Part shown: positions 47,190 through 49,462 of the stretch, piece by piece
Position numbering within the stretch: the stretch's first letter is position 1
Layout: every line of letters begins with the position of its first letter
Translations under genes and position numbers: made by a program
Notes under the pieces: model-generated
The model's input: the letters and a program-made list of their open reading frames with translations, nothing else
What the model was told of the DNA's origin: nothing
Database searches by the model: none
From: Candidatus Brevefilum sp.
Lineage (GTDB): Bacteria > Chloroflexota > Anaerolineae > Anaerolineales > Anaerolineaceae
DNA: 49,462 nt
Assembly: GCA_029210815.1 (NCBI GenBank)
Contig: JARGGB010000016.1
Span: 1-49,462 of the forward strand
Reading direction: 5' to 3'

Positions 47190-47819
47190 CTATCCGAGAT
47201 AACTTTCGATTACATCCAATGACGCAACGGGCATGACAATATTCTTATAACCCAAAAGATCACGGATATTCAAATAACTAGCTATCAGGGTCTTTACATT
47301 GGCGAGGTTGGCACAAGCCTTTTTTACATCGCTGTATTCCGGGCTGTTTTCCGGGATCACCAATAAAACGGTGCTCTCGCCTGCAACTGCCTTGAATACT
47401 TCTGCCATTTTACGGGTCTTCACTTCATCCAATTTGAACTCATCCATCATGATGATTTCGCCTTCTGAAGCTTTTACTGTTAAAGCAGACCGTAAAGCAG
47501 CCCTGCGCATCTTTTTAGGCATTGCCTTTTCGTATGAGCGTGGTTTGGGGGTAAAAATTTTACCGCCGCCAACCCATTGCGCAGCTCGGATAGAGCCTTG
47601 CCGGGCACGCCCTGTACCTTTTTGGCGCCAGGGTTTACGACCACCACCGGAGACTTCACTGCGACCTTTTGTCGAATGCGTCCCAAGGCGGCTGTTAGCC
47701 ATCTGCCTGACATATGCCTGATGCATCAAATCAACTTTTACTGGGGCTTCAAAAATTGCAGCAGGTAGATCTACCGTGCCGACTTTTTTACCCTGCATGT
47801 TGAAGACATCAACTTCCAT
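47190..47819 (-). CDS. rplD: 50S ribosomal protein L4
   Basis: 209 residues. The loop that reaches into the exit tunnel is present ([20 protein letters not shown], about 48-67, then [18 protein letters not shown]). In gamma-proteobacteria L4 represses the S10 operon by binding its leader; here a structured leader lies two genes upstream, before rplC, making L4 and L3 obvious candidates for such feedback. Confidence 0.98.
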
Positions 47820-47862: not shown

Positions 47863-48492
47863 TTATTGTTTCCGGGCAGGCTTGATCACAACCATGCCGC
47901 CCCTTGGGCCTGGCACGGAGCCATCAACTGCTAATAAATTACGTTCCGGGTCTACCAACACCACGCGAACATTCGACGATGTCACGATCTCGTTTCCCAT
48001 TCGCCCAGGGCCACGTTTGCCTTTCCAAACACGACCGGGGGTCGTGCCGGAGCCCAGGGAACCGGGTGCGCGCCATCGGTCTGACTGACCGTGTGTTTTC
48101 GGACCACCTGCAAAACCATAGCGTTTCACCACACCGGCGAAACCCCGGCCCTTGCTGGTTCCGACAATATCTACATGTTCGTCCTTCTCAAAGACATCAG
48201 CCTTAAGCTGGTCGCCTTCTGAGACGTCCGGTGATTTCGTCTTAAATTCTCGTAGTACTTTTAATGGTGGCAAATTATTGCGTTTGAGGTGACCAAGCTC
48301 CCCCCCAGTTAAACGATCAGGCTTCACCTCTTCAAACCCAATTTGAACCGAAGTATAACCATCCTTTTCATCGGTCTTAACCTGGGTTACATAACAAGGC
48401 CCAGCTTCGATGAGTGTTACCGGGAACGCAGCCCCATTTTCATCGAAAACCTGGGTCATACCAACTTTTCGTCCAATCAGCCCTTTAAACAT
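47863..48492 (-). CDS. rplC: 50S ribosomal protein L3
   Basis: 209 residues. MFKGLIGRKVGMTQVFDENG (1-20), the central extension (KRYGFAGGPKTHGQSDRWRA, about 123-142, with the Gln that is methylated in some species) and PGRVWKGKRGPGRMGNE (about 152-168). An assembly initiator near the peptidyl-transferase centre. AACAGGAG lies 8 nt upstream. It is preceded by an unusual 288-bp gap with its own promoter. Confidence 0.98.
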   Translation of the reverse strand: MFKGLIGRKVGMTQVFDENGAAFPVTLIEAGPCYVTQVKTDEKDGYTSVQIGFEEVKPDRLTGGELGHLKRNNLPPLKVLREFKTKSPDVSEGDQLKADVFEKDEHVDIVGTSKGRGFAGVVKRYGFAGGPKTHGQSDRWRAPGSLGSGTTPGRVWKGKRGPGRMGNEIVTSSNVRVVLVDPERNLLAVDGSVPGPRGGMVVIKPARKQ

Positions 48493-48665
48493 ATTCGATA
48501 TTCTCCTGTTACAAATTATTTTGACGAGACTGTCAGCCTGGGCACGGCTGCATCATCTCCGACCGCAGCACAGTCAACCTTTCCTCCGCGACCCTTCCGT
48601 ATTCTTTGGGACTACGGCAAGAAATGTTCTTATGCCACCTTAAAAGTTGGGCTTTAAGCCCAAAC
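48493..48665 (-). ncRNA. Candidate structured ribosomal-protein leader upstream of rplC
   Basis: On the minus strand, from a predicted start near 48665, several paired elements appear in order: TTGGGCTT/AAGCCCAA at the 5' end (48647-48663), GGC-AAGAA/TTCTT-GCC (48616-48636), CCGTA/TACGG (48597-48617; it shares two bases with the previous stem, so the two compete or stack), then GACTGT/ACAGTC (48575-48570 with 48533-48528) enclosing GCTGC/GCAGC and the alternative CAGCC/GGCTG (48534-48550). The ribosome site follows about 30 nt later. No T-tract terminator is seen, so control of translation or RNA stability is more likely. Confidence 0.55.
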
Positions 48666-48671
48666 CTGCCT

Positions 48672-48700
48672 ATTTTACCATCTTAAGGTAAGTTTGCCAA
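48672..48700 (-). promoter_or_regulatory. Strong internal promoter before rplC
   Basis: Read on the minus strand: TTGGCA (48700-48695), a 17-bp spacer and TAAAAT (48677-48672), both 5/6 matches to consensus. It starts a transcript near 48665 independent of tuf-rpsJ, covering the rest of the superoperon. Confidence 0.7.
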
Positions 48701-48780
48701 GTATCAATTTTTATTGATTCCCTGCAGTTGAATTTCAATTTTGTCGAAATTCAGCTTCAGACAACCTTACGACACAAATG

Positions 48781-49089
48781 CTAAATCTTAATTTCGATAT
48801 CGACGCCAGCCGGCAAATTCAGGCGCATCAACATATCAATGGTTTTTGAGTCTGGGTCCATAACATCAATCAAACGATTGTGGGTTCGAATCTCAAAATG
48901 CTCCTGCGAGTCTTTATCGATAAATGGTGAACGCATCACTGTAAATCGTTCAATTTTGGTCGGTAAAGGTACCGGACCAGCAACCTGTGCGCCGCTGCGC
49001 TCAGCTGTTTCCACAATCCGCCTTGCAGATTGATCGATGACTCGATGATCATAAGCCTTCAGACGTATACGAATCTTTTGTTTTGCCAT
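48781..49089 (-). CDS. rpsJ: 30S ribosomal protein S10
   Basis: 102 residues. [20 protein letters not shown] (4-23), then [20 protein letters not shown] (about 38-57) and the C-terminal [21 protein letters not shown]. Besides the ribosome it is NusE in antitermination in well-studied bacteria. It lies 19 nt after tuf, and 288 nt before rplC; in most bacteria that second gap is only a few tens of bases. Confidence 0.98.
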
Positions 49090-49108
49090 AATTTATTCCT
49101 AATAAACC

Positions 49109-49462
49109 TTACTCAATAATCTTTGAGATAACGCCAGCGCCTACCGTCAGACCACCTTCACGGATAGCGAACTGTGAACCGTTTTCCAAAGCCACAGGCA
49201 CAATCAGCTCTACTTCAATGGTCACACGATCGCCAGGCAATACCATCTCAACACCTTCCGGCAATGTCACCGTTCCGGTCACATCCATCGTCCGGATGAA
49301 GAACTGCGGTCGATAGCCGCTGAAGAACGCACTGTGTCGTCCACCTTCTTCTCGGGTTAAGACGTACACTTCACCTTCAAACTTGGTGTGCGGGGTGATG
49401 CTGCCTGGTTTGGATACAACCATACCGCGCTCCACCTCATCTCGACCAATACCGCGCAGCAG
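49109..49462 (-). CDS. tuf: Elongation factor Tu, C-terminal part (cut by window edge)
   Basis: The last 117 residues of EF-Tu, which brings aminoacyl-tRNA to the ribosome. The frame is open to the window edge, starting [20 protein letters not shown], then domain 3 with [20 protein letters not shown] and [18 protein letters not shown]; it ends [15 protein letters not shown]. The GTP-binding domain lies outside the window. It forms tuf-rpsJ with the S10 gene. Confidence 0.97.

Follow-up and report, generated by a model that had tools for sequence, protein, structure and literature searches.

Few ribosomal operons of Escherichia coli are as long as the S10 operon. In the parts of the published accounts drawn on here, its expression is described as controlled by the ribosomal protein L4 (PMC10931766), and its leader as a structured RNA of 172 nt (PMC7186457) that sits before rpsJ (PMC2704228) and also uses a terminator (PMC10931766). 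Eckert and Weinberg (2020), who assign the ligands of ribosomal-protein leaders by precedent, include two further systems of interest: a candidate L4 leader of Archaeoglobi, placed before rplC-rplD-rplW-rplB, and the S10 leader of Firmicutes, a known type named for S10 (PMC7247131).

We analysed a window of 49,462 nt from Candidatus Brevefilum sp., the whole stretch of DNA under study, in which the minus strand carries tuf, rpsJ, a gap of 288 nt and then rplC, rplD, rplW and rplB. With rpsJ ending at 48781 and rplC starting at 48492, the gap has precisely the length given in the original prediction, which was made from the sequence of this window; the remaining gaps among the ORFs read as rplO to tuf, the stretch measured, are all shorter than 50 nt. 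The identities of rplC, rplD, rplW, rplB and rpsJ were confirmed with NCBIfam, the names of the further S10 and spc genes come from a reading of the ORFs, and the tuf (EF-Tu) ORF is a fragment truncated by the window end.

On comparative sequence evidence, the rpsJ-rplC gap holds a structured, conserved RNA leader (Table 1). It resembles the E. coli S10 leader in being structured and of comparable length, in lying in the same operon and in having L4 encoded downstream, but it sits between rpsJ and rplC, and no intrinsic terminator-like site was found in positions 48300-49200 of the window. As placement before rpsJ and an intrinsic terminator are two defining features of the E. coli-type S10 leader, we do not assign the present RNA to that type. 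The Archaeoglobi candidate shares the placement before rplC-rplD-rplW-rplB and has L4 as its ligand by precedent, but it is archaeal, rated borderline by its authors (PMC7247131) and likened here by placement rather than by alignment, whereas the Firmicutes S10 leader belongs to another phylum and is likened by description. Searching the window against Rfam 15 gave no match, and lowering the threshold to E-values of up to 10 for positions 48400-48850 gave four matches, all far below gathering scores, in line with the undescribed leader that had been suspected. The parts of the open-access literature drawn on here (PMC7247131, PMC10931766, PMC2864571, PMC3766115, PMC7186457, PMC2704228) describe no such leader for this lineage. 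The RNA is thus apparently an undescribed member of a familiar kind, the ribosomal-protein leaders. Sitting one gene deeper in the operon, and retained through an order and in some members of a class, it would solve the same control problem independently and would show which protein another phylum uses to count the output of its S10 operon.

Table 1. Coordinates of the leader, its promoter and the adjoining genes in the window.
Feature	Position	Strand	Remarks
Promoter: -35 TTGGCA (48700-48695), 17 nt, -10 TAAAAT (48677-48672) after TGG	48672..48700	-	predicted start ~48665
5' hairpin P0 (GGTTTGGGCTTAAAGCCCAAC)	48646..48666	-	directly 3' of promoter; by-eye comparison
Helix A, 5' strand	48631..48638	-	94.4% of cells paired; 7/8 pairs with both-side changes
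AAGA strand, helix A/B internal loop	48628..48631	-	nearly invariant, 47 sequences
Helix B, 5' strand	48619..48628	-	84.7% of cells paired; 10/10 pairs with both-side changes
Helix B, 3' strand	48576..48585	-	comparative alignment
UGACU strand opposite AAGA	48576-48572	-	outermost A-U at either end paired by RNAalifold
Helix A, 3' strand	48565..48572	-	comparative alignment
Hairpin C, motif core, ~35 nt	48526..48560	-	98% of cells paired; models R2, R3
Hairpin C, outer helix	48559-48555/48530-48526	-	
Hairpin C, internal loop GAUG / ACA	48554-48551 / 48533-48531	-	
Hairpin C, inner helix	48550-48546/48538-48534	-	
Shine-Dalgarno-like AGGAGA of rplC	48502..48507	-	
rplC (L3)	47863..48492	-	first gene downstream of leader; NCBIfam
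rplD (L4)	47190..47819	-	candidate ligand; identity from NCBIfam, ligand role inferred

The conserved fold consists of two parts, helix A/B spanning 48638-48565 and a separate hairpin C at 48560-48526. Members of the order carry an internal loop in each part, with an AAGA strand facing UGACU between helices A and B. In hairpin C, the GAUGAUG of the 5' strand and the CAGUC of the 3' strand each recur in 79 of 80 class-wide sequences, and the apical loop is free to differ in both its length and its letters. Folding the window sequence alone yields a minimum-energy structure that includes, for the most part, helix A/B and hairpin C, at an unremarkable folding energy (z -1.21; 27 of 200 shuffles fold equally well). 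It is the comparative evidence, not the folding energy, that sets the leader apart from chance.

This evidence appears strong in sum and modest pair by pair. Across 50 sequences of hairpin C (47 distinct), 98.1% of cells pair and seven of nine pairs show changes on both sides, with 46 double-change cells against 11.9 in shuffles. RNAalifold, applied to the 47 sequences with helix A/B (alignment A1, in which L046, L048 and L057 have no row since no helix A/B was found there, and in which rows L019, L027, L035, L043, L052 and L053 were anchored by hand), returned 28 pairs, 24 of them with double changes. Scored separately, the same structure has 222 double-change cells against 70.0 in shuffles; sliding this structure by one column lowered pairing from 92.5% to below 38%. 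Alignment A2 omits L003 and L004, which are near-copies of L002. Class-wide, in 80 loci picked for spread and all with rplC downstream (A4), 98.5% of the hairpin C cells are paired and double-change cells number 74 against 17.6, while 67 of 500 shuffles have at least as many pairs with changes in both strands (7). The comparison of related intergenic regions that the original prediction had proposed did reveal compensatory changes: on a tree built from the alignment under test, we counted 69 double compensatory events in the structure against a null mean of 8.65 (sd 2.91, maximum 18, 0 of 200 reaching the observed value); in the wide set, hairpin C has 19 such events against a null of 2.12. 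Some pairs with at least three events also occur outside the structure, both in A1 (29 of 6993, against 13 of 28 inside) and in A4 (4 of 893, against 4 of 10). A stricter, R-scape-like pair test retained a single significant pair in each of these alignments, in both cases the same outer one of hairpin C, and no pair beyond the structure passed it. Overall, conservation and compensatory changes bear out the structured leader of about 170 nt that had been proposed.

Upstream of the fold, the TTGGCA-N17-TAAAAT promoter named in the original prediction is present, and its place is conserved in close relatives. It is of the sigma-70 type and matches 10 of 12 consensus bases; taken alone it does not exceed chance, as positions 48300-49200 hold three promoter-like sites against a mean of 1.8 in shuffles. 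In an alignment of 18 chosen genus and family rows, out of 24 prepared, the -10 letters TA-A-T never vary and keep a constant spacing to P0, and all 12 same-genus rows in it carry the TTGGCA -35 element. L013, L024 and L042 were left out for a misplaced anchor, and L018, L021 and L030 also stand outside this alignment, though all three have TATAAT at the same place. By a simple score, 31 of 47 order loci have a good promoter candidate and 11 have none, so the promoter is supported for close relatives rather than for the whole order. The arms predicted for the hairpin at the 5' end, TTGGGCTT and AAGCCCAA, were found at 48663-48656 and 48654-48647; judged by eye in 17 of the 24 prepared rows, many members of the family have a P0 stem with altered letters in this position.

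The predicted folded RNA is kept by most members of its order and, more widely, by some of its class, which we took as Anaerolineae from the titles of matching sequences. Among 61 genomes, rplC was located in 58, the window's own included, and each of these loci was inspected upstream of the gene. A hairpin C stands before rplC in 52 of the 55 order loci with rpsJ upstream and in all three in which rpsJ was not found upstream (L026, L044, L054), that is in 55 of 58 order loci, the three without a hairpin C before rplC being L055, L058 and L059; the proposed place before rplC-rplD thus holds for most of these loci. Since hairpin C is kept where rpsJ was not found, the motif travels with rplC and not with rpsJ. 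In L121, where rpsJ starts some 2 kb upstream, the motif still stands directly before rplC.

Covariance models extended this picture beyond the order and are now usable for annotating the class. Model R3 found hairpin C in 239 of 261 order genomes (not in 22) and in 110 of 346 class genomes (not in 236), nearly always with one match per listed genome, in runs whose stricter filters lose weak matches and with a model built partly from the same groups. Across the phylum, model R2 matched 40 of 400 genomes. The three of these from outside the class (G472, G555, G763; 22-25 bits) were taken as chance, with no rplC in the fetched stretches. We fetched the surroundings of 40 model matches, 39 from beyond the order (picked from 74 such) and one from a family member: rplC lies directly downstream of 35, and the other five score 22.5-24.4 bits with none of 13 tested genes nearby. 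When R3 was run on 52 rplC loci, 46 from outside the class and six from matchless class members, nothing scored above 11.4 bits. Complementarily, a pattern scan of the genome collection, covering the longer-loop variant only, returned 87 stretches, of which the 81 that match R2 all bear Anaerolineae or other Chloroflexota titles and the six that do not (L097, L118, L142, L169, L172, L174) bear titles of other phyla.

Beyond the order, the motif also keeps close to the ribosome-binding site of rplC. Over the 33 loci measured there, a median of 17 nt (range 10-25) separates the end of the hairpin C CAGTC from the start codon, and in 32 of them a Shine-Dalgarno-like string lies in between. The corresponding distance in 46 other loci, mostly from the order, has a median of 33 nt (range 16-155). 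Within the order, the Shine-Dalgarno sequence follows about 20 nt after hairpin C, and its occlusion would therefore be less direct there. In three order loci (L033, L035, L036), hairpin C stands 96, 72 and 155 nt from the start codon, placing the Shine-Dalgarno sequence far off. With no terminator-like site in positions 48300-49200 of the window and, beyond the order, the hairpin close to the ribosome-binding site, control at the translational level is favoured, and we consider it probable.

We therefore propose a cis-acting ribosomal-protein leader, most likely responding to L4, that would repress translation of rplC and the genes following it, and to this reading we assign a probability of about 0.62. 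RNA polymerase would start at the internal promoter, near 48665, and the transcript would fold into P0, helix A/B and hairpin C, the last two backed by comparison. Once an operon protein, most likely L4, exceeds the free rRNA, it would bind the internal loop of hairpin C, and in this order the helix A/B loop would probably assist binding. Binding would clamp the stem next to the ribosome-binding site of rplC, block translation of this gene and, through coupling, also repress rplD-rplW-rplB and the genes after them. Hairpin C suggests itself as a specific binding site because its internal loop is nearly invariant and its apical loop is free to vary, and its compact core of about 35 nt makes the proposal directly testable. 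Graded part by part, the region is almost certainly a structured cis-regulatory leader, and feedback by a ribosomal protein is very likely. The choice of ligand is more tentative: L4 is our best guess because of precedent, L3 is a possible candidate by virtue of its position, and another product of the operon is a somewhat weaker one.

A leader of the same structure that senses L3, the product of the adjoining rplC, is the alternative that fares best, and we regard it as unlikely rather than remote. Good matches stand directly before rplC wherever genes are visible, and beyond the order hairpin C nearly touches the rplC ribosome-binding site, both as expected for L3, but the precedent in this operon is for L4. 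The two internal loops (48631-48628/48576-48572 and 48555-48551/48533-48530) are somewhat alike, with UGA.. opposite an A-rich strand. As variants of one module they could be two sites for one protein. A leader that senses L3, or that responds to two proteins by means of its two internal loops, with rpsJ (together with tuf) escaping a feedback that acts from rplC onward, is likewise an unlikely alternative to the L4 leader.

Looking for rRNA mimicry, as a means of deciding between the candidate ligands, gave no significant match. Running R2 on the organism's own 23S region gave a best match of 8.7 bits (E 0.18). The single match of R3, which was run on the own 16S region and on two 23S regions, lay on the antisense strand (8.9 bits, E 0.62), and scanning with short strings found nothing convincing. 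By eye, one 23S region (L217; Rfam consensus GGG-UGAUAGU-CCC-GUA), the H19 hairpin, at which L4 binds, looks like hairpin C minus its inner helix. In a joined consensus-strand test, 97% of shuffles for the own 23S and 71% for L291 scored at least as well, and the H19 site took top place in only two of nine 23S sequences or pieces. On these results we do not claim that hairpin C mimics H19; the own 16S, which reached a higher value in the joined-strand test (22), likewise leads to no claim of mimicry.

A leader acting without protein control, whether it tunes translation in a fixed way, serves RNA stability or processing, or senses another kind of ligand, seems distinctly improbable. Protein binding is read here from sequence, and Eckert and Weinberg, in the part of their work drawn on here, allow for RNAs of ribosomal-protein genes that bind no ribosomal protein (PMC7247131). 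The nearly invariant internal loop next to a varying apical loop nevertheless resembles a specific binding site, and the tie to one ribosomal operon also speaks against such an element.

The original prediction had placed a GACTGT/ACAGTC stem at the base of a branched fold. Both strings are present in the window (48575-48570 and 48533-48528, minus strand), but the stem they would form shows one double compensatory event where 1.7 are expected, with a covariation score no better than in shuffles, and the conserved fold assigns ACAGTC to the 3' strand of hairpin C. Furthermore, no GACT stands 8-30 nt before GATGATG, the placement used in our scan (whose script missed L011, though GACT is present there), in 30 of 33 loci from beyond the order that retain hairpin C, so we rejected this stem as the main fold. 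The same data weigh on a two-state switch, in which the GACU of the helix A/B loop would pair with the AGUC of hairpin C in one of the states. The two strings (48575-48572 and 48531-48528) are indeed nearly invariant and complementary across the 47 A1 sequences, but each is accounted for by its own loop, and we judge the switch even less probable than a leader without protein control. Within the order, GACU and AGUC may still form an alternative or tertiary pairing. Finally, an ordinary long spacer with a promoter, conserved by recent common descent only, would agree with the near-chance folding energy and the single pair passing the strict test, but it is hardly credible given stem letters that change while 98% of cells stay paired, 69 double events against 8.65 and conservation extending beyond the order.

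Other Chloroflexota carry different sequences at the same place. Six loci of another family (L237, L239, L241, L242, L243, L253) have in common another conserved hairpin, GGCAGCCGCTGCGC...GACGCA.GCTGCGGAGGT, immediately ahead of rplC; it ends in a Shine-Dalgarno-like string and may be a leader of its own at this site. In a further family (L244, L247, L248, L249), a GCCATAGCCAATACGGC...CTATG stretch that could form a hairpin precedes rplC.
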